DNA of 44,857 bases from Rhodocytophaga aerolata. Its GTDB lineage: Bacteria; Bacteroidota; Bacteroidia; Cytophagales; 172606-1. Below, piece after piece: positions 16,929-42,325 of the stretch (position 1 is the first letter of the stretch; every line of letters starts with the position of its first letter). The position numbers were made by a program, and so were the translations under genes. The stretch spans positions 1 to 44,857 of the forward strand of contig NZ_JAUKPO010000040.1 of NCBI RefSeq assembly GCF_030503435.1, written 5' to 3'. The notes below the pieces were generated by a model. The model was not told the DNA's origin, did not search any database, and was given only the letters and a program-made list of their open reading frames with translations.

Positions 16929-18272
16929 TTAATCCGGCCGGTTTTTAAATACTGAAAAGCCTGGCTCAGAAACTTCCTTGGGCACATACTTGTTTACGCC
17001 TACCAACACTTGTTTTCCACTTTGCAGATCTGCCTCCTTGGCTTTGCGTACCTGCATTAGTTGTTCTTTGATAAAGCCGTCTTTTACAGCTTGCCTATAT
17101 CCCCCGCTGGCTTCTACGGTCTGAAATAGTTTCCAGGCTTCTGCCGCCAGACGTTGAGTCAGGCTCTCTAGATAATACGAGCCGCTGGCTACATCTAGCA
17201 CGTTGTCAAAATAGCTTTCTTCTTTCAGAATGAGCGAAACATTTTTGGCAATACGGGTTGCCAGGGCATCGTTTGGGTTATTATTATAAGGCATAACCGT
17301 CATACTGGCCACTCCCCCTAAGGCTGCTGCCATCGCTTCAATCGTAGCCCGGATCATGTTGTTATACGCATCTGAGGCGGGCTTATTCCACCGTGCGGTA
17401 TGGGCATGGATATATGCAGGATTTGACTCTACCTGATAGGCCTTTGATACTTGTTGCCACAACAGATGTAAGGCCCGGATTTTGGCAATTTCCATAAAGT
17501 AGTTGGTGCTAACCGATACAGAAAATTCAGTACTTGCAAAAATACCTTGGATGGCTATGCCGCGTTCACTGAGCTGATGCGCATATTCAACAAAAGAATT
17601 TAATAGAAAAGCCAGTTCCTGCACCGCTGAGGCTCCTGCTTCGTGGAAGTGATGGCTACTGACCGTAAGTGTTCTGAACTGAGGATGCTTACTAGTAAAT
17701 GGAATGGCTTGTGCCAGCAAATCAACAGCAGAATCCAGATCGCCTTCTTTGCCTGATCTATATGCTGCCAGTGGATCGTAATACACACTTCCTTTCCATA
17801 AGTAAGGAGCTATCTGTTGCAATTGAGTAAGTAAATCAATGGAGAAATGCTGTACCTGAAAACTTACCGGCGTTTGGGATAACTTCATATGTTGCAGCAG
17901 GTGTGAAAGATTTATCGGGCCAGTAGTTTTTGATAGATCCAGTAACAAGGCATCAGCTCCTCCACTAATAGCTTCCTGTGCTTGTGCATTGGCTTCTTTT
18001 TCTCCTCTTACCTCTATGTATTGCCGGTTTTGCCAGCCCTGTGCAGGTGCAGGAAAACGTATTTCAGGAATACTGGCTATATCTTGCTGCGTGTAGAAAG
18101 GTTCTATGGTGATTCCTTCATATGTTTTCCACCGCATTTTCTCTTCATACACCGCTTCTTTCTCCTCAGCGGTTGCCTTCCGGATGTCCTGCAGAATTTG
18201 TGCCCTCCAGGCTTGGCTATCGGAAGGAGAAAATTCAGGGAAGGAAAGATTTTTTTCGTCAGGTACGTTCAT
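16929..18272 (-). CDS. mutA: Methylmalonyl-CoA mutase small subunit (no B12 domain)
   Basis: This is the partner of the catalytic subunit in the heterodimeric mutase. With start ATG 18272 (MNVPDEKNLSFPEFSP) it has 447 residues; ATG 18284 would add four. It keeps the mutase barrel: MRWKTYEGITIEPFYTQQDI, HHFHEAGASAVQELAFLLNS, MEIAKIRALHLLWQ and SGSYYLESLTQRLAAEAWKL. It ends soon after VGVNKYVPKEV, so the whole C-terminal cobalamin-like domain is missing, while the classic Propionibacterium subunit is over 600 residues with a degenerate one. Short small subunits of this kind are usual in Bacteroidota. It is the first gene of the minus-strand group and faces the polysaccharide locus across a 290-base divergent region. 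Confidence 0.92.
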   Translation of the reverse strand: MNVPDEKNLSFPEFSPSDSQAWRAQILQDIRKATAEEKEAVYEEKMRWKTYEGITIEPFYTQQDIASIPEIRFPAPAQGWQNRQYIEVRGEKEANAQAQEAISGGADALLLDLSKTTGPINLSHLLQHMKLSQTPVSFQVQHFSIDLLTQLQQIAPYLWKGSVYYDPLAAYRSGKEGDLDSAVDLLAQAIPFTSKHPQFRTLTVSSHHFHEAGASAVQELAFLLNSFVEYAHQLSERGIAIQGIFASTEFSVSVSTNYFMEIAKIRALHLLWQQVSKAYQVESNPAYIHAHTARWNKPASDAYNNMIRATIEAMAAALGGVASMTVMPYNNNPNDALATRIAKNVSLILKEESYFDNVLDVASGSYYLESLTQRLAAEAWKLFQTVEASGGYRQAVKDGFIKEQLMQVRKAKEADLQSGKQVLVGVNKYVPKEVSEPGFSVFKNRPD

Positions 18273-18411
18273 AAAGACTTGCATTATAGCTGTAATGTAT
18301 AACAAAATTTACAGACGCATACAATAGCTGCATAGTTTAACGTTTTTTAGAATGTTCAAACCTTTCATCTGTAAAGATTTTTTCGAATACTTAATTATTA
18401 AAGTTTCCTGT

Positions 18412-18419: not shown

Positions 18420-18559
18420 CCACATCCCGGCTATGCGCATAAGCACTTAGTGAGCTTATAAAGCAACTATTTATCGGATATGGTAGCCACCTCACTAGAT
18501 GAGCATGGCTAGCCTGTAGATTTGTTAGGATTGGCCGGATTGTATTGTGCAATAAACCT

Positions 18560-19615
18560 ATGCCTAACCGTAAAATACCCCATATATTAGCCATTATTCC
18601 TGCCCGGCAGGGATCTAAATCCATCCCGCATAAAAACATACGGTCGGTAGGAGGGAAACCACTAATGGCTTATTCTATAGAGCATGCCTTATTGGCTAAG
18701 CGGATTACCCGTACCATTGTAAGTACAGATAGTGCCTATTATGCAGATATAGCAAGAAGTTACGGTGCAGAAGTGCCTTTTTTACGTCCGGAAGCTATAT
18801 CTCAAGATCATTCCACAGACCTGGAAGTATTTCAGCATGCCTTGCAATGGCTGCAGGAGAGTGAAAACTATGTGCCAGATATCTGTGTGCACCTGCGGCC
18901 TACTTCGCCGGTAAGAAAAGCAGCAGACATAGATAGCATGATAGAAATTCTGATGGAGAATCCCAGTCTGGATGCTGTACGGTCGGTAGCAGCAAACCTG
19001 GAAACCCCTTATAAAATGTGGTTCAGGGATGAAGAGGGATTATTGAAACCTATCGTGCAACGGGACTTGCAAGGTAAGCTGATTGAAGAAGCCTACAATA
19101 TGCCCAGGCAAAAACTACCGGTAACCTATCTGCAAAATGCTTCCGTAGATGTGGTTCGTACCAGTACGCTGCTGGAAAAAAACTCTATGACTGGCGATGC
19201 CATTTATGGCTATGTAATGGCAGAGAATTTTGATATTGATTATGAAAGCCAGCTGACCAGGGTAGCAACACAACTGGTTACAAACGGGCATGGAGAAAAC
19301 AAAAGTAAAATCTTCTGTTTTGATATAGATGGCGTAATTGCCTGCCTCACCCCAGATAACGACTATGCCAAAGCCGATTGCCATACCTCTACCATTGATA
19401 TCATTAATACCTTATACGAGCAGGGGCATTACATCATTCTTTTTACTGCCAGAGGTACCAAAACCGGCATTGACTGGAAGAATACCACAGAAGAGCAGTT
19501 GCACCGATGGGGCGTAAAATACCATGAGTTAAAATTCGGAAAACCTGCGGCTGATTTTTATATAGACGACCGCATGATCACCATAAACGATTTAGAAAAA
19601 ATTGTAAAGCTATAA
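18560..19615 (+). CDS. CMP-ulosonate cytidylyltransferase fused to a HAD-family domain
   Basis: The 351-residue protein joins two enzymes. Residues about 5-240 are a NeuA/KdsB-type cytidylyltransferase that would activate a ulosonic acid with CTP: the nucleotide loop IIPARQGSKSIPHKN, LRPTSPVRKAADID, and NMPRQKLPVTYLQNASVDVV are typical of acylneuraminate cytidylyltransferases. Residues about 248-351 are a HAD-superfamily domain with FCFDIDGVI (nucleophile Asp), LFTARGTKTGIDW and the C-terminal KPAADFYIDDR. Such a domain could remove the phosphate that a ulosonate-phosphate synthase leaves. ATG 18560 is chosen; an upstream TTG is less likely. The stop lies 4 bases before the next gene, so the two are surely coupled. 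It is the first gene after an exact -7 box. The sugar (sialic, legionaminic, Kdo-like or other) cannot be told. Confidence 0.85.
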   Translation: MPNRKIPHILAIIPARQGSKSIPHKNIRSVGGKPLMAYSIEHALLAKRITRTIVSTDSAYYADIARSYGAEVPFLRPEAISQDHSTDLEVFQHALQWLQESENYVPDICVHLRPTSPVRKAADIDSMIEILMENPSLDAVRSVAANLETPYKMWFRDEEGLLKPIVQRDLQGKLIEEAYNMPRQKLPVTYLQNASVDVVRTSTLLEKNSMTGDAIYGYVMAENFDIDYESQLTRVATQLVTNGHGENKSKIFCFDIDGVIACLTPDNDYAKADCHTSTIDIINTLYEQGHYIILFTARGTKTGIDWKNTTEEQLHRWGVKYHELKFGKPAADFYIDDRMITINDLEKIVKL

Positions 19616-19619
19616 AACA

Positions 19620-21116
19620 ATGAATCAGCTATTCAATGACCTGTTTATTTTTGAAATGGCCAATAACCACCAGGGCGATGTAAACCATGGACTGGCCATT
19701 ATCAAAGCAATGGGTGAGATAAAAAGAAAATATGCTATAAATGCTGGTGTAAAATTCCAGTACCGCCAGCTGGATACTTTTATTCATCCCGACTACAGGC
19801 ACGATACAAAAGCCAAGCACATCAGCCGTTTTCTGAGCACAGAACTAACCAAAGAGCAATTTCATACGTTGGTAAAAGCTACCAGAGAAGAAGGTCTGGT
19901 TACCATCTGTACTCCTTTTGATGAAGAGTCGGTAGACCTGATTGTAGAGCAGGGCATAGAAATAATCAAAGTAGCTAGCTGCAGTGCCGACGACTGGCCT
20001 TTGCTGAAAAAAATAGTAAAAGCCAACAAACCGGTAATTGCTTCTACTGGTGGCCTGGATCTGCCAAAAATTGATAATCTGGTAAGTTTTTTGTCTCATA
20101 AAGCTACCAATAACTTTGCTATTCTTCACTGTGTAGGCATTTATCCAAGTCCAAATGAGGTATTGCACCTGAACTATGTAGAACGGTTAATCAAGCGGTA
20201 TCCGGGGGTAACTATCGGCTATTCCGGCCACGAAGCTCCGGACAATTATGAAGTAGTACAGATAGCTGTGGCCAAAGGAGCCTGTATATTTGAACGGCAT
20301 GTTGGGTTGCCAACCGATACAATTAAATTGAATGCCTATTCCATGAACCCTGCGCAGGTAGATACCTGGATAGCCGCTGCACAACGGGCCCGAACAATTT
20401 GCGGAAGTCCGGATAAAGCCATTACACAAGAAGAAGTAGATTCGCTGCTCTCTTTAAAAAGAGGTGTTTTTGCCCGGCGTGAAATTAAAAAAGGACAGGA
20501 AATTACAGCAGAAGATGTGTTTTTTGCCATGCCATGTGCCAAAGGACAATTAACCTCCGGAGAGTTTGGGCAGTACCGGACAAAATGGGTAGCAAGCAGA
20601 AATTATAAACCTAAAGAAGGCATATTCGAACAATCACAGCCGGATTTATATAAAAATATACGGGCTATTATTCACCAGGCAAAAGGCATGCTTACCGAAG
20701 CACAGATCAATCTGGGCAATGAGTTTGAAGTAGAGCTCTCCCACCATTATGGCCTGGAGCAATTTCCACAGACCGGGTGCCTGATCGTAAATTTAATGAA
20801 CCGGGAATATTGCAAAAAGCTGATTGTGGTGCTACCCGGACAAACCCATCCGCTGCACAAGCATAAACGCAAAGAGGAAACCTTCCACCTGCTTTGCGGC
20901 GACCTGACCCTGAAACTGGATGAAAAAGTGTTTCAACTGAAACCAGGAGATATGCACCTGATAGAGCGGGAAACCTGGCATTCCTTCTTCTCAGAAAAAG
21001 GGGCTATCTTTGAAGAAGTATCCACTACCCATTACCGGAATGATTCCTATTACCAGGATGAACGCATATCGGTACTGGACCCCATTCAACGGAAAACCGT
21101 ACTGGATACGTTTTAA
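19620..21116 (+). CDS. NeuB-type ulosonate synthase with SAF and cupin domains
   Basis: This 498-residue protein would condense phosphoenolpyruvate with an aldose to give a ulosonic acid. Residues about 5-270 are the NeuB barrel: FEMANNHQGD, VKFQYRQLDT, STGGLDLPKI, HCVGIYPSP and GYSGHEAPDNY, where family members bind PEP and metal. Residues about 285-345 are a SAF (antifreeze-like) domain (RGVFARREIKKGQEITAEDV), which closes the active site of a partner chain. An extra C-terminal cupin fills about 385-480 with the metal set His413, His415 and Glu420 (HKHKRKEE) and PGDMHLI before W-H. Ordinary NeuB is about 345 residues, so the cupin is an addition; it may isomerise or bind a sugar. Tight coupling to the cytidylyltransferase upstream and the KpsF-type gene downstream suggests one pathway. 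Confidence 0.88.
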   Translation: MNQLFNDLFIFEMANNHQGDVNHGLAIIKAMGEIKRKYAINAGVKFQYRQLDTFIHPDYRHDTKAKHISRFLSTELTKEQFHTLVKATREEGLVTICTPFDEESVDLIVEQGIEIIKVASCSADDWPLLKKIVKANKPVIASTGGLDLPKIDNLVSFLSHKATNNFAILHCVGIYPSPNEVLHLNYVERLIKRYPGVTIGYSGHEAPDNYEVVQIAVAKGACIFERHVGLPTDTIKLNAYSMNPAQVDTWIAAAQRARTICGSPDKAITQEEVDSLLSLKRGVFARREIKKGQEITAEDVFFAMPCAKGQLTSGEFGQYRTKWVASRNYKPKEGIFEQSQPDLYKNIRAIIHQAKGMLTEAQINLGNEFEVELSHHYGLEQFPQTGCLIVNLMNREYCKKLIVVLPGQTHPLHKHKRKEETFHLLCGDLTLKLDEKVFQLKPGDMHLIERETWHSFFSEKGAIFEEVSTTHYRNDSYYQDERISVLDPIQRKTVLDTF

Positions 21117-21168
21117 TTTTTATGTTTAACCCTTTTCACAGGTTTTTAGAAGAGCCTGCTGAATATAC

Positions 21169-22161
21169 ATGCAAACCCAGGAAACGATTACCACTTACCA
21201 TCAGTACTTAACAGAAGTTATGCGCATAGAAGCTGAGGCCATTATGCGTGCCATGGCGCAACTTGACCGGCAAGAGGTAAGTAAGGCAGTTGAGTTACTG
21301 TTAACCTGTGAAGGGAAAGTTGTATTGCTTGGGGTAGGGAAGTCGGGAATAGTGGCCCACAAAATAGCTGCTACATTTGCAAGTATAGGTATTACAGCCA
21401 TTCATTTGCATGCCGCCGATGCTATGCATGGGGACCTGGGGATCATCCATAAAAACGATGTGCTGCTAACTATTAGCAACAGTGGGGAGACCGAGGAGAT
21501 TACAGCTTTATTGCCACACGTTTCATTACGGCAAGTACCCATTATAGCAATTGTAGGAAATATTCATTCTACTCTGGCTACTCATGCCTATGCCGTGTTG
21601 GATGCTTCTATTAGCCGTGAGGCTTGCCCATTAAATCTGGCTCCTACAACCAGTACTACAGTTGCTTTGGCTATTGGCGATGCCTTAGCTATGACTATTA
21701 TGCAGGTGAAAAAAGTGAGTGCAGAAGATTTTGCTATCAATCATCCGGCGGGTAAACTGGGTAAACGCCTGGCACTACGGGTGAAAAACCTGATGCACAG
21801 TGGAGAGAATAATCCGGTATTATATGCACAAGCAAGCTGGAAAGAAATAGTAGATGCCATCGATCAAGGTAAGTTAGGCGCCGTAAGCATTATTGACAGA
21901 GAAAGAAAGCTACTAGGGATTATCACCGACGGCGATTTGCGTAGAACCATGCAACGTACCCCATTGGATGAGTTGGAAAAACTCTCGGCCAGTGTAATCA
22001 TGACTAAGCAGCCAATAGTAGCCCAGCCGGAGATGCTAGCCTATACCGCCCTGCAGTTAATGGAAAAGAGAAGTTCACAAATTTCCGTATTACCAGTAGT
22101 AACGTCTACAGGCGAAGCCATAGGTATAATACGGATACATGATATTATTGGAAAGTTATAA
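21169..22161 (+). CDS. kpsF: Arabinose-5-phosphate isomerase, KpsF/GutQ/KdsD type
   Basis: The 330-residue cytoplasmic enzyme would interconvert ribulose-5-phosphate and D-arabinose-5-phosphate, the precursor of Kdo. A SIS domain (about 35-165) shows LGVGKSGIVAHKIAATFASI, ADAMHGDLG and ISNSGETEEI, followed by LAPTTSTTVALAIGDALA and FAINHPAGKLGKRL, all typical of the KdsD family. Two CBS domains follow (about 205-262 and 270-328; GIITDGDLRR is in the first). It lies 52 bases after the synthase and 1 base before the ABC permease, so it belongs to the locus. A copy in a capsule locus, as with KpsF, hints that Kdo or a Kdo-like sugar is part of the glycan or its lipid anchor. A second housekeeping copy may exist elsewhere. 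Confidence 0.92.
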   Translation: MQTQETITTYHQYLTEVMRIEAEAIMRAMAQLDRQEVSKAVELLLTCEGKVVLLGVGKSGIVAHKIAATFASIGITAIHLHAADAMHGDLGIIHKNDVLLTISNSGETEEITALLPHVSLRQVPIIAIVGNIHSTLATHAYAVLDASISREACPLNLAPTTSTTVALAIGDALAMTIMQVKKVSAEDFAINHPAGKLGKRLALRVKNLMHSGENNPVLYAQASWKEIVDAIDQGKLGAVSIIDRERKLLGIITDGDLRRTMQRTPLDELEKLSASVIMTKQPIVAQPEMLAYTALQLMEKRSSQISVLPVVTSTGEAIGIIRIHDIIGKL

Positions 22162-22162
22162 G

Positions 22163-23065
22163 ATGGAATATAGTGTAAAAGAAAATAAAGATATAGAAAG
22201 CAGCGTACCTCTTTCCAGTACAGAGCCGGAAGAATGGACGATGGAGATTAAATCCAATCCAGGGTTATTTGATTTAAACCTCAAAGAACTGTGGCGTTAC
22301 CGCGATTTAATATCCTTAATCGTAAAAAGGGATTTTGTATCTGCCTACAAGCAGACGGTACTCGGGCCAGTATGGCATTTTGCTGAACCTATGGTTACCA
22401 CATTAACCTATGCATTCATTTTCGGAGGTATTGCCAATATTTCTACCGATGGCTTGCCCCGTATTTTATTTTACTTATCCGGCATTATGCTTTGGACCTA
22501 TTTTTCTAATTGTCTGTTAAATACTTCCAGTACCTTTAATGCCAATGCACATATATTCGGAAAGGTATATTTTCCCAGGTTAGTAATGCCCATCACTACC
22601 ACAATATCCAGCATGATTGCCTTGGGAATGCAATTCATCCTGTTTATTTTACTGGTATTATTCTATTATGTACGAGGAGAAAATATAAATACGAACATAT
22701 ACGCTTTACTTACTCCATTATTGGTTATAATGATTGCAGGCACTGGTTTAGGTTTAGGCATGCTGCTTTCATCAGTTACGAATAAATACCGGGATATAGC
22801 TAAGTTAGTAGGGGTAAGTATGCGACTATTAATGTTTGCTACGCCAATCATTTATCCCTTGTCTAAAGTACCAGATAAATATAAACCTATTATTATGCTC
22901 AATCCTATGACCTCTATTGTAGAAACTTTCCGCTATGGCTGGTTAGGAACCGGAAGCTTTTCCTGGAATAATTTAGGGTATAGCCTGATTTTTATGCTGG
23001 TGTCGTTATTCTTTGGAATACTCGCTTTTAACAAAGTGCAAAAAACAGCCATAGATACCATTTGA
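22163..23065 (+). CDS. wzm: Polysaccharide ABC exporter permease, Wzm type
   Basis: This 300-residue inner-membrane protein is an ABC-2 permease of the Wzm/TagG/KpsM class that moves a lipid-linked glycan out of the cytoplasm. A polar N-terminus of about 60 residues precedes the family start LWRYRDLISLIVKRDFVSAY and KQTVLGPVWHFAEPM. Six membrane segments follow, including LTYAFIFGGI, ILFYLSGIMLWTYFSN, MQFILFILLVLFYYV and the last LIFMLVSLFFGILAF; RLLMFATPIIYPLSKVP and LNPMTSIVETFRYGW are hallmarks. ATG 22163 is chosen over an upstream frame overlapping the isomerase gene. The ATPase gene starts 3 bases after the stop. ABC-dependent export implies that the chain is finished in the cytoplasm, so the glycosyltransferases here likely act there. 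Confidence 0.93.
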   Translation: MEYSVKENKDIESSVPLSSTEPEEWTMEIKSNPGLFDLNLKELWRYRDLISLIVKRDFVSAYKQTVLGPVWHFAEPMVTTLTYAFIFGGIANISTDGLPRILFYLSGIMLWTYFSNCLLNTSSTFNANAHIFGKVYFPRLVMPITTTISSMIALGMQFILFILLVLFYYVRGENINTNIYALLTPLLVIMIAGTGLGLGMLLSSVTNKYRDIAKLVGVSMRLLMFATPIIYPLSKVPDKYKPIIMLNPMTSIVETFRYGWLGTGSFSWNNLGYSLIFMLVSLFFGILAFNKVQKTAIDTI

Positions 23066-23068
23066 TTT

Positions 23069-24343
23069 ATGACAGTAGTAGTAAGAGTAGAAAATGTATC
23101 CAAGAAATACCAGTTAGGAAACATTGGTACACAGAGCCTAAAAGGTGACTTTAACCGATGGTGGGCCAGAATGCGGGGCAAAGAAGACCCTTTTGCAAAG
23201 ATAGGTGATGAAAGCCAACATCAGAATGGAGAATTCTGGGCGCTAAAAGATATTAATTTTGAAGTGAAGCAAGGGGAAGCTGTAGGAATAATTGGAAAAA
23301 ATGGCGCAGGTAAAAGTACGTTGCTGAAGATCCTCTCCAGAATTACTAACCCTACTATCGGTAATGTAAAAATAAAAGGCCGCATTGCCAGCTTACTGGA
23401 AGTAGGCACCGGCTTTAACCCGGATTTAACCGGAAGAGATAATATCTTTCTGAATGGAGCTATCCTGGGCATGACCAAACGGGAAATAGCAGCTAAGTTT
23501 GATGAGATTGTTGATTTTTCCGGTATAGAAAAATTTATTGATACGCCGGTAAAAAGATATTCTTCTGGCATGTACGTGCGGCTAGCTTTTGCCGTAGCTG
23601 CTCACCTGGAATCAGAAATACTCATATTAGATGAAGTATTGGCTGTAGGTGATACTGAATTTCAAAAAAAGTGTTTAGGTAAAATGGATGATGTCGCCCA
23701 TAAACAGGGCAGAACGATTTTATTTGTAAGTCATAGTATGCAAGCGGTAACAACTCTTACCAATACTTGCATTTTTCTGAAAAACGGTCAATTAAAAAGC
23801 CAGGGATTTACACAAGAAGTGATTAAAGGATATTTACAGTCAGATCCATCTGCTTTAGAACAGTTAATATATATAGATAGTCCTTCAAACCTTGAGCCCA
23901 AAGTTACAAAAGTCGAAATAGAATCTTCAGAGTCTTCTAATTCTCAGGCATATGGCAAACCCATGACAATTCTATTTAATATATCAACTCCATCTCCTAT
24001 AAAAAGTGCAGCTTTATCTTTTCAGGTTATGAATTCAATGGATCAACCAGTAACCCACTTGCTTGTAATGGATTCTGAAATACCTATAGCTCGTAAGTCA
24101 GGTTTATTTGAATTACAATGTCATATACCTAAGGTTAGACTTTATCCAGGTAACTATACCCTAAAAGTACATTTTGCTGATAGGTTCTCAAAGCAAAAAT
24201 ATCAAACTATAGAACGGATTTGCCCCTTTGAAGTAGGAGTTTATGGTGAGATAAGGGATTATTATTGGGGAACTGGAAATGCGATGTATGTAGAGGATTG
24301 CGATTGGTCAGTAGTTTGTATGGATCAATACTCAAAAGTGTAA
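23069..24343 (+). CDS. wzt: Polysaccharide ABC exporter ATPase, Wzt type
   Basis: The 424-residue ATPase drives the Wzm permease. Residues about 1-265 are the nucleotide-binding domain: Walker A GIIGKNGAGKST (from 73), the signature YSSGMYVRLAFA (from 164), Walker B ILILDEVLAVGD (from 184) and the switch His in VSHSM (near 222). Residues about 275-424 form an extra beta-rich C-terminal domain of the Wzt type, which in O9a-like systems recognises the capped end of the finished chain and so sets specificity. That makes the methyltransferases downstream interesting as candidate cap makers. By eye the base composition falls in GC near the domain boundary (about 23.85 kb). The next gene starts 21 bases on. 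Confidence 0.93.
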   Translation: MTVVVRVENVSKKYQLGNIGTQSLKGDFNRWWARMRGKEDPFAKIGDESQHQNGEFWALKDINFEVKQGEAVGIIGKNGAGKSTLLKILSRITNPTIGNVKIKGRIASLLEVGTGFNPDLTGRDNIFLNGAILGMTKREIAAKFDEIVDFSGIEKFIDTPVKRYSSGMYVRLAFAVAAHLESEILILDEVLAVGDTEFQKKCLGKMDDVAHKQGRTILFVSHSMQAVTTLTNTCIFLKNGQLKSQGFTQEVIKGYLQSDPSALEQLIYIDSPSNLEPKVTKVEIESSESSNSQAYGKPMTILFNISTPSPIKSAALSFQVMNSMDQPVTHLLVMDSEIPIARKSGLFELQCHIPKVRLYPGNYTLKVHFADRFSKQKYQTIERICPFEVGVYGEIRDYYWGTGNAMYVEDCDWSVVCMDQYSKV

Positions 24344-40700: not shown

Positions 40701-41453
40701 ATGATTATGAATTTATTTAAAAAAGTTATTTTAAAATTCATTTTAACAAATCAAGCTTCTTCAGTAGGCAGGAACAATGAAGAAAATAGACACAAATGGA
40801 TTGAAAAAGTATTGCAAAATATACCTGATGGAAATAGAATATTGGATGCAGGAGCAGGAGAACAACCTTTTAAAAAATTTTGCACACATTTAAGCTATGT
40901 TTCACAAGACTTTTCACAATATAATCCTAATAATTCGGGCGTTGGTATACAAAAAGAAACTTGGACTTATGGTAATATAGATATTGTTTCCGATATAATA
41001 AACATACCAGAGCCAGATAGTTCGTTTGATGCTGTTTTATGTACAGAAGTGATAGAGCATGTACCTGATCCTGTCAAAGCCATATGTGAACTTAGTAGGT
41101 TGCTTAAAAGAAAAGGTTTACTCATTATAACTGCACCTTTTTGCAGTATAACACATTTTGCTCCATATCATTATAGCACTGGGTTTAATAGATTTTTTTA
41201 TGAAAAACATTTGTCTGATTTAGATTTTGATATTATTGAAATAGAAAGTAATGGTAATTTTTTTGAATACCTTGCTCAAGAATTAAAATTTTTACCAGGT
41301 GTGGCTTCCAAGTATGCCAAGGTTAAATTAAACTATGAAGAGAAAATATATATCAACTCTCTAATGCTAATGCTGGATAAGCTAAGTAAAGCCGACACTA
41401 ATTCTAGTGAATTATTGTGTTATGGATATCATGTATTAGCAAGAAAGAGATGA
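40701..41453 (+). CDS. SAM-dependent methyltransferase
   Basis: The 250-residue class I methyltransferase has NRILDAGAGEQPFKKFCTHL as SAM loop (about residues 46-65), then SFDAVLCTEVIEHVPDPVKA and LKRKGLLIITAPFCSITHFA. EHVPDP and APF are typical of the Methyltransf_11 group found in O-antigen loci. The stop overlaps the ATG of the fucosyltransferase gene (ATGA), so both are translated together, which makes methylation of the fucose or its neighbour a fair guess. Confidence 0.82.
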   Translation: MIMNLFKKVILKFILTNQASSVGRNNEENRHKWIEKVLQNIPDGNRILDAGAGEQPFKKFCTHLSYVSQDFSQYNPNNSGVGIQKETWTYGNIDIVSDIINIPEPDSSFDAVLCTEVIEHVPDPVKAICELSRLLKRKGLLIITAPFCSITHFAPYHYSTGFNRFFYEKHLSDLDFDIIEIESNGNFFEYLAQELKFLPGVASKYAKVKLNYEEKIYINSLMLMLDKLSKADTNSSELLCYGYHVLARKR

Positions 41454-42325
41454 TAATTGTAAGATTAAATGGGGGGTTAGGAAACCAACTATTCCAATAT
41501 GCTTTAGGAAAGCACCTGGCTCATCTACACAAAACGCAGCTTAAATTAGATATACGTTGGTTCGAAAAAGGTATCAGAAATTATGAATTGAAGTATTTTA
41601 ATATAAATGAAACTATTGCAACAGAGGAGGAGATAAGCTTTACCTCTAACATGACTACCTCTCTAATAAATAGATTTCAGCGGAGTATAGTTGAACCTCT
41701 TTTGCCTTACTACAAAAGAAGTATTGTAGAAGAAAAAACTAACTCATTTGATAGAAATATATTTAAATCTAAAAGTGATATTTACGTAAAAGGGTACTGG
41801 CAAAGTGAAAAGTATTTTGTGAATATAGAAGAACAAATCCGAAGAGATTTTACTTTTAGATACGAACTTGACCATAAAAACAAAGGCTTGAGTGATAAAA
41901 TAAAAGTCTGTAATGCGGTAAGTGTACACATTCGGCGAGGAGATTATGTATCTGATCCAGAGTATGCAAAAAAATATGGTGCTTGTAGTGTGGATTATTA
42001 TCATAGAGCATATACTTTATTTGAGAAAAAATTTGAAGAACCTTATTATTTTATTTTTTCAGATGATATACAATGGGTACAAGAGCGTATTAAATTTTTT
42101 CAACCATGTGTTTATATCAATCACAATACTGGTAATAATAGCTATAAAGATATGCAGTTAATGAGTTTATGTAAACATAATATAATAGCCAATAGTACTT
42201 TTAGTTGGTGGGGAGCCTGGTTAAACTCTAATTCTGAAAAAATTGTAGTTGCACCCATAAACTGGTATCACGATACAACTATAGAAACAAAAGACCTTCT
42301 CCCGGAAGGCTGGTGCAAATTGTAA
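41450..42325 (+). CDS. Alpha-1,2-fucosyltransferase-like, family GT11
   Basis: The 291-residue protein belongs to GT11. It starts MIIVRLNGGLGNQLFQYALG, the conserved entrance of the family, has the GDP-fucose binding motif VHIRRGDYV near residue 160, YYFIFSDDIQWVQERI, and NSTFSWWGAWL near residue 249. ATG 41450 is the proper start because it places IIVRLNGGLGNQ at the N-terminus; an upstream TTG would only add residues overlapping the methyltransferase gene. The enzyme would transfer fucose from GDP-fucose to a galactose-type residue in alpha-1,2 linkage. Genes for GDP-fucose synthesis (gmd, fcl) are not in the window. Confidence 0.92.
   Translation: MIIVRLNGGLGNQLFQYALGKHLAHLHKTQLKLDIRWFEKGIRNYELKYFNINETIATEEEISFTSNMTTSLINRFQRSIVEPLLPYYKRSIVEEKTNSFDRNIFKSKSDIYVKGYWQSEKYFVNIEEQIRRDFTFRYELDHKNKGLSDKIKVCNAVSVHIRRGDYVSDPEYAKKYGACSVDYYHRAYTLFEKKFEEPYYFIFSDDIQWVQERIKFFQPCVYINHNTGNNSYKDMQLMSLCKHNIIANSTFSWWGAWLNSNSEKIVVAPINWYHDTTIETKDLLPEGWCKL

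Follow-up and report, generated by a model that had tools for sequence, protein, structure and literature searches.

A conserved gene pair encoding a cytidylyltransferase-phosphatase and a NeuB-cupin synthase, and a candidate two-chain route to a CMP-ulosonate in Rhodocytophaga aerolata

The 44,857-nucleotide contig NZ_JAUKPO010000040.1 of Rhodocytophaga aerolata (assembly GCF_030503435.1), the whole of which we call the window, carries three forward-strand open reading frames (ORFs) separated by only 4 and 52 bases (Table 1). The first encodes a cytidine monophosphate (CMP)-ulosonate cytidylyltransferase joined to a haloacid dehalogenase (HAD) phosphatase, the second a NeuB synthase followed by a SAF domain and a cupin, and the third a KpsF-type isomerase with one SIS and two CBS domains. 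We show that the first two genes form a conserved unit, and we lean towards the view that they constitute a self-contained CMP-ulosonate pathway of the 2-keto-3-deoxynononic acid (KDN) kind in two polypeptides. An earlier sequence-only reading of this DNA had described the three genes, their domains and their spacing, all of which agree with the ORF positions and with Pfam and NCBIfam, which find NeuB and Cupin_2, plus a partial Lyx_isomer match, in the second protein. It was also right that the synthase is of the NeuB rather than the KdsA class (PF03102 at 153.8 bits, above the Pfam gathering score of 22.1; KdsA is encoded on another contig) and that the cupin has a metal set of His413, His415 and Glu420. 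Its statement that the window lacks NeuC, legionaminic acid (Leg) and pseudaminic acid (Pse) genes stands for the window proteins scanned, among which there are none, and these are some but not all of its ORFs. The best PDB match of the cytidylyltransferase domain is NeuA 9ftb (E 9.8e-26). For the HAD part NCBIfam gives a weak match (EcbF-BcbF, 22.6 bits against a cut-off of 162), and among solved structures this part matches 9iqw, a protein of capsule biosynthesis (E 6.1e-11); 42 of 43 aligned proteins (the window's and those of 42 loci) have D260, D262, T301 and K333, and all 43 have D341 and D342.

Table 1. Coordinates of the two-gene unit and of genes around it in the window.
Feature	Coordinates	Strand	Support or remark
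ORF, cytidylyltransferase-HAD	18545 (TTG; ATG 18560)-19615	+	
CMP-ulosonate cytidylyltransferase domain	18545..19291 (start TTG 18545 or ATG 18560)	+	PF02348 E 4.5e-21
HAD phosphatase domain, fused to cytidylyltransferase	19292..19615	+	EcbF-BcbF, 9iqw, catalytic motifs; boundary approximate
ORF, NeuB-SAF-cupin	19620-21116	+	
NeuB synthase domain	19641..20411	+	PF03102 E 6.8e-45; model fits 3g8r, template modelling (TM) score 0.95 by target length
SAF (antifreeze-like) domain	20454..20624	+	sequence alignments; bounds approximate
Cupin domain resembling D-lyxose isomerase	20646..21113	+	2y0o E 5.6e-15; Foldseek top 2y0o; model predicted local distance difference test (pLDDT) 92.3
Cupin motif H413xH415xxKxE420	20856-20879	+	
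KpsF/GutQ-type arabinose-5-phosphate isomerase	21169..22161	+	TIGR00393 273.6 bits, cut-off 203.7; judged outside the module
Wzm-type ABC-2 membrane protein	22139..23065 (ATG 22163 also possible)	+	PF01061 E 8.1e-19; synteny
Wzt-type ATPase with C-terminal domain	23069..24343	+	PF00005 E 4.9e-23; Wzt_C 29.9 bits, slightly under cut-off 30.4

Relatives spanning NeuB to cupin are encoded at 80 further loci, so the architecture is not a chance one. Cytidylyltransferase and HAD parts occur together at 43 of these, upstream of NeuB-cupin in 42 cases and 8.4 kb downstream in one, as judged by a 45%-identity rule for neighbours; at one of the 43 (L034) the reading frame differs between the parts, and for this reason that locus was left out of the HAD alignment. 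A HAD match stands alone at two loci, and neither part is found at 23. The genomes of these 23 have a cytidylyltransferase match (E <= 1e-20) in 20 cases and a whole cytidylyltransferase-HAD in 11, ten of them in one piece and one (G441) in two adjacent pieces. Two Runella loci (L038, L039) have no cytidylyltransferase within 10 kb of NeuB-cupin, and the same genomes encode a whole cytidylyltransferase-HAD elsewhere; in Salinisphaera (L112) and at L136, NeuB-cupin is followed by another kind of HAD gene, which by eye resembles those for phosphoglycolate phosphatases. A phosphatase is thus often, though not always, at hand, and the conserved unit is cytidylyltransferase-HAD plus NeuB-SAF-cupin. 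Its distribution is scattered: matches at E <= 1e-60 occur in 5 of 395 Bacteroidota genomes, two of the five covering the NeuB part only, and the NeuB part (E <= 1e-35) is present in 6 of 369 genomes of the class to which G444 belongs. A plasmid search with the NeuB part returned 16 records at about 25-30% identity, those annotated being NeuB, PseI or NeuB-family. Residue conservation is given below for 76 proteins (the window's and those of 75 loci); the five left out (L078, L082, L095, L106, L109) all have an HxH-xx-KEE cupin motif, and four have the methionine discussed below as Met304, L106 having Phe. Two loci, L034 and L035, are probably the same records as the contigs of two genomes of the host's family (G002, G006). 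More distant NeuB relatives, 37-46% identical and some without a cupin, adjoin an enzyme that is, by eye, of the thiamine-diphosphate type at L030, L031, L032, L033, L137 and L139.

The sequence-only reading had counted KpsF as a member of the module and had stated that fusions without a neighbouring KpsF in most genomes would refute its proposal, which is the situation seen. Within the reach of their contigs, none of the 80 loci has a KpsF gene adjoining NeuB-cupin; four have a SIS or CBS match, two of these more than 40% identical and lying 7 and 9 kb away. The 78 genomes behind 79 of the loci (that of L034 was left out) include 20 with a KpsF match at E <= 1e-30 (13 of 49 and 7 of 29), 18 of them over the cut-off, and 58 with none at that threshold, many of which are possibly incomplete metagenome assemblies. 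Among eight genomes of the host's family, NeuB-cupin (E <= 1e-60) is found in five (G000, G002, G005, G006 and, as a partial match at a contig end, G007) and KpsF (E <= 1e-30) in four (G000, G001, G003, G004), with G000 the only one to have both; completeness is 72-75% for G002 and G007. In the order seen in the window, Wzm and Wzt come after KpsF in G004 and G001, both devoid of NeuB-cupin; in G003 the Wzm/Wzt homologues are more divergent, and about 3 kb separate them from KpsF. On these grounds we rejected KpsF as a member. In the R. aerolata genome (9.07 Mb, 202 contigs) a KpsF search gave this copy and otherwise a single 22-bit partial match, and KdsA and KdsC score over their cut-offs on contigs C202 and C125; with one KpsF copy and its own KdsA and KdsC, the genome has in KpsF the obvious isomerase for ordinary synthesis of 3-deoxy-D-manno-octulosonic acid (Kdo). 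KpsF is probably a bystander from lipopolysaccharide synthesis, sited with the Wzm/Wzt exporter and unneeded by the module. What survives of the original proposal of four functions in three chains is a compact ulosonate module; with KpsF outside it, the four functions would reside in two chains, the cupin standing in KpsF's stead. Since KdsA scores over the cut-off in G005 and G006, we did not keep to the idea that a genome lacking KpsF makes no Kdo. In G005, where KpsF has no match at E <= 1e-30, KdsA adjoins a gene that is transaldolase-like by eye (L131:5288-8926, with a HAD gene alongside, and L132:364-2361), and the same pair occurs in G001; the transaldolase-like enzyme might provide arabinose 5-phosphate in G005.

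The cupin domain is likely an isomerase, judging from its profile and its predicted fold. A profile of 45 cupin domains retrieved the D-lyxose isomerase 2y0o first and the Thermofilum enzyme 7nzo second (E 3.5e-14), followed by quercetin dioxygenases (1.1e-13) over the metal-site part only. With the AlphaFold2 model as the Foldseek query, the first ten matches were 2y0o (E 1.1e-10, TM score 0.71, 163 columns across the whole domain), 7nzo-q and 3kmh/3mpb; the cupin phosphomannose isomerases 7zvm/7zvy come after the D-lyxose isomerases, 7zvm and L-ribose isomerases directly following these ten. For PF07385 (D-lyxose isomerase) the whole protein scores 26.9 bits against a cut-off of 20.8, with no single stretch passing alone. 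Sugar contacts described for the Thermofilum lyxose isomerase are K62, H75, H77, K86, E88, H143, E156 and D163 (PMC8378251). The first seven correspond to K400, H413, H415, K418, E420, H454 and E466 in a HMMER sequence alignment, made with no superposed coordinates and with an inferred numbering offset of 24; seven of the eight published sugar or metal contacts are therefore kept. Six are invariant in the sets examined, H415, K418, E420, H454 and E466 in 76 of 76 and K400 in 45 of 45. Of the PF07385 residue set (H75, H77, K86, E88, H143, E156, D163) the window protein has six of seven by the same alignment, D163 being absent. The fold, the metal site and most sugar contacts of the cupin are shared by the D-lyxose/D-mannose isomerases (2y0o, 7nzo-q, 3kmh) and by phosphomannose isomerases of the cupin type (7zvm, 7zvy), but these are stand-alone proteins of about 17-26% identity, and the Asp163 position differs by the alignment. 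The sequence-only reading had allowed for either an isomerase or a lid, and had suggested the comparison with sugar isomerases that now favours the former and not the latter.

The synthase part offers clues to the substrate. Meningococcal NeuB places the N-acetyl group of the sugar by means of Arg314, a SAF-domain residue, and its R314A mutant is inactive (PMC6795526). At the place of Arg314, in alignment with the R314A and R314K structures, the window protein has Met304 (20529-20531), and the position is Met in 75 of 76 proteins and Ile in the other; Arg is kept in the second NeuB of the R. aerolata genome (L023), and another NeuB, L108, has Lys. Because of this methionine an unacylated sugar is the likely substrate. 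The protein also falls below the equivalog cut-offs for N-acetylneuraminate synthase (TIGR03569, 155.7 against 399.65 bits) and pseudaminic acid synthase (TIGR03586, 130.9 against 340.25 bits). An Arg four residues after Lys45 is present in NeuB-cupins, in the synthases of G004 and G001 and in the cupin-less L028, the residue being Tyr in L023 and His in L108; it might contact a phosphate, and with few sequences to go on we do not use it as evidence. The second NeuB (contig C111) lies, by eye, within a seeming pseudaminic acid cluster. Among solved structures, Chromobacterium violaceum 3g8r (annotated SpsE) is 47% identical over NeuB-SAF but is a 350-residue crystal chain without a cupin; Neisseria meningitidis NeuB (1xuu) has the same NeuB-SAF architecture but is 23% identical, uses N-acetylmannosamine and carries Arg314 where Met stands here.

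A cluster in G004, a genome of the same genus, occupies the position of the module. Downstream of the same two mutase genes and before KpsF-Wzm-Wzt, it encodes a SAF-less NeuB, a cytidylyltransferase, a hexapeptide transferase and a HAD protein. The closest structures to the latter are 3e81/3e84/3e8m/4hgo (E 3.5e-44), ahead of KdsC enzymes; they are labelled acylneuraminate cytidylyltransferase in the search, and we take them to be the KDN-9-phosphate phosphatase of Bacteroides thetaiotaomicron. The cluster looks KDN-like; it differs from the window module in its KdsC-like HAD and in its synthase, which, like that of G001, has neither SAF nor cupin. KDN 9-phosphate is made from mannose 6-phosphate in B. 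thetaiotaomicron and Prymnesium, according to PMC6200933, and the bacterial CMP-KDN pathway comprises KDN-9-phosphate synthase, phosphatase and CMP-KDN synthetase, as the G004 cluster appears to; its genes are separate, unlike those of the window module, and mannose 6-phosphate must come from elsewhere. The closest experimental parallel is neuA-neuB of Serratia marcescens KL1/KL2, two genes in which NeuB likewise has an extra isomerase-type domain (PMC9000132). There the polysaccharide contains KDN and N-acetylneuraminic acid (Neu5Ac) at about 20:1, deletion of the capsule region leaves KDN undetectable, and neuB mutants give a 4-fold lower sialic acid signal (PMC9000132). The Serratia domain is COG1082 rather than a cupin, and the relevant passages of that paper mention no HAD fusion. 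The pathway type is already known; the NeuB-cupin fusion and the two-chain packing are new, and a literature search of open-licence PMC papers found no description of the fusion.

From the domain architecture, fold, conserved sites, two-gene co-occurrence and independence of KpsF we infer the following reactions and products. The cupin would act on a ketose phosphate, most likely turning fructose 6-phosphate into mannose 6-phosphate; by condensing the aldose phosphate with phosphoenolpyruvate (PEP), the NeuB domain would form an ulosonate phosphate, KDN 9-phosphate being the likeliest; the HAD domain would remove the phosphate to give KDN; and the cytidylyltransferase would yield CMP-KDN. Synthase, phosphatase and CMP-transferase are encoded together in the module, as the KDN pathway requires.

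Several points weigh against this proposal, the main doubts being one catalytic residue, the members without HAD and the distant relatives in other kinds of cluster. We know of no activity for any NeuB-cupin member. The Thermofilum Asp163, whose mutation abolishes lyxose isomerase activity, falls on the variable column 473, an invariant Asp475 lying two residues on, and D-lyxose isomerases are described for free sugars, the Thermofilum enzyme having less than 2% activity on mannose (PMC8378251). H413 is His in 67 of 76 proteins and Gln in 9. Twelve of the 80 loci have a cytidylyltransferase but no HAD, and the neighbour clusters include a second NeuB at four loci and an aminotransferase that is DegT-like by eye at three. 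Several distant relatives lie in clusters resembling, by eye, those for cytidine diphosphate (CDP)-3,6-dideoxyhexose synthesis, so KDN does not account for the whole of the wider family, which perhaps puts the synthase to a different use. The Serratia capsules, too, hold some Neu5Ac (PMC9000132).

Four other accounts deserve consideration. The same two-chain logic could serve an eight-carbon ulosonate other than Kdo, the cupin turning xylulose 5-phosphate into D-lyxose 5-phosphate or a similar pentose phosphate; its closest structures are, after all, D-lyxose isomerases, including an enzyme with high specificity for D-lyxose (PMC8378251), but we consider this unlikely given the KDN-like cluster at the same spot in G004 and the KDN that accompanies the Serratia isomerase fusion. 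Just as doubtful is an N-acyl nonulosonate of the Neu5Ac, Leg or Pse type, its precursors supplied by enzymes from other loci and the cupin being a structural lid: NeuB homology, the second NeuB in its seeming Pse cluster and the three aminotransferase-like neighbours would fit, whereas the Met at the Arg314 position, the scores far below the equivalog cut-offs for NeuB and PseI and the conserved isomerase site would not, and no NeuC, Leg or Pse family is seen by eye in the 30 largest neighbour clusters from 75 loci. A still lower probability attaches to a cupin that works on the condensation product, be it the free ulosonate or the phosphate, or that serves as a catalytically dead scaffold, for although one catalytic Asp is not conserved by alignment and H413 gives way to Gln in some members, the retention of seven contacts, six of them invariant, argues against this account. 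The route of the sequence-only reading, in which KpsF feeds arabinose 5-phosphate to the NeuB-type synthase for Kdo or a relative and the cupin is a lid or modifier, is very improbable, since the tight gene order of this one genome is outweighed by the lack of an adjoining KpsF at the 80 other loci, the lack of any match at E <= 1e-30 in 58 of 78 genomes, its co-occurrence with NeuB-cupin in one of eight family genomes, and the genome's own KdsA and KdsC.

In R. aerolata the product would probably enter the polysaccharide that the downstream glycosyltransferases build and Wzm/Wzt export; a dedicated ulosonate transferase was not identified. The downstream polysaccharide cluster includes a glycosyltransferase of family 11, fucosyltransferase-like, at 41417-42325, and on the other side of the module, at 16929-18305, lies a 458-residue ORF resembling the small subunit of methylmalonyl-CoA mutase and short for the 620-position model. 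Elsewhere a flagellin and/or Maf-like gene is present at 35 of the 80 loci, many from Lachnospiraceae, one representative of each type having been checked by Pfam; Maf belongs to PF01973. With such genes nearby, flagellin glycosylation is a likely use at those loci. In Clostridium botulinum and Geobacillus, Maf enzymes can take CMP-Neu5Ac and CMP-Kdo instead of their own donor (PMC11339370), a tolerance that makes CMP-KDN a plausible donor. A bolder variant, which we think improbable, is a two-protein machine, scattered over several phyla, whose starting materials are a ketose phosphate and PEP and whose product is a CMP-ulosonate new to bacteria, for instance an octulosonate from D-lyxose 5-phosphate, placed on flagellin via Maf in many Gram-positive gut bacteria.

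If the KDN pathway holds, the gene pair would be the most compact route known to us to a CMP-activated sialic-acid-like sugar, and a handy two-enzyme source of CMP-KDN. The fusion described here and the Serratia case together suggest that NeuB became fused on two or more occasions to sugar isomerases of unrelated kinds, and an extra isomerase domain on NeuB may thus predict deaminated, KDN-type products. The fusion is found in several phyla, in few genomes of each sample, and its product would be a candidate flagellar sugar for the many Lachnospiraceae loci near flagellin or Maf-like genes.

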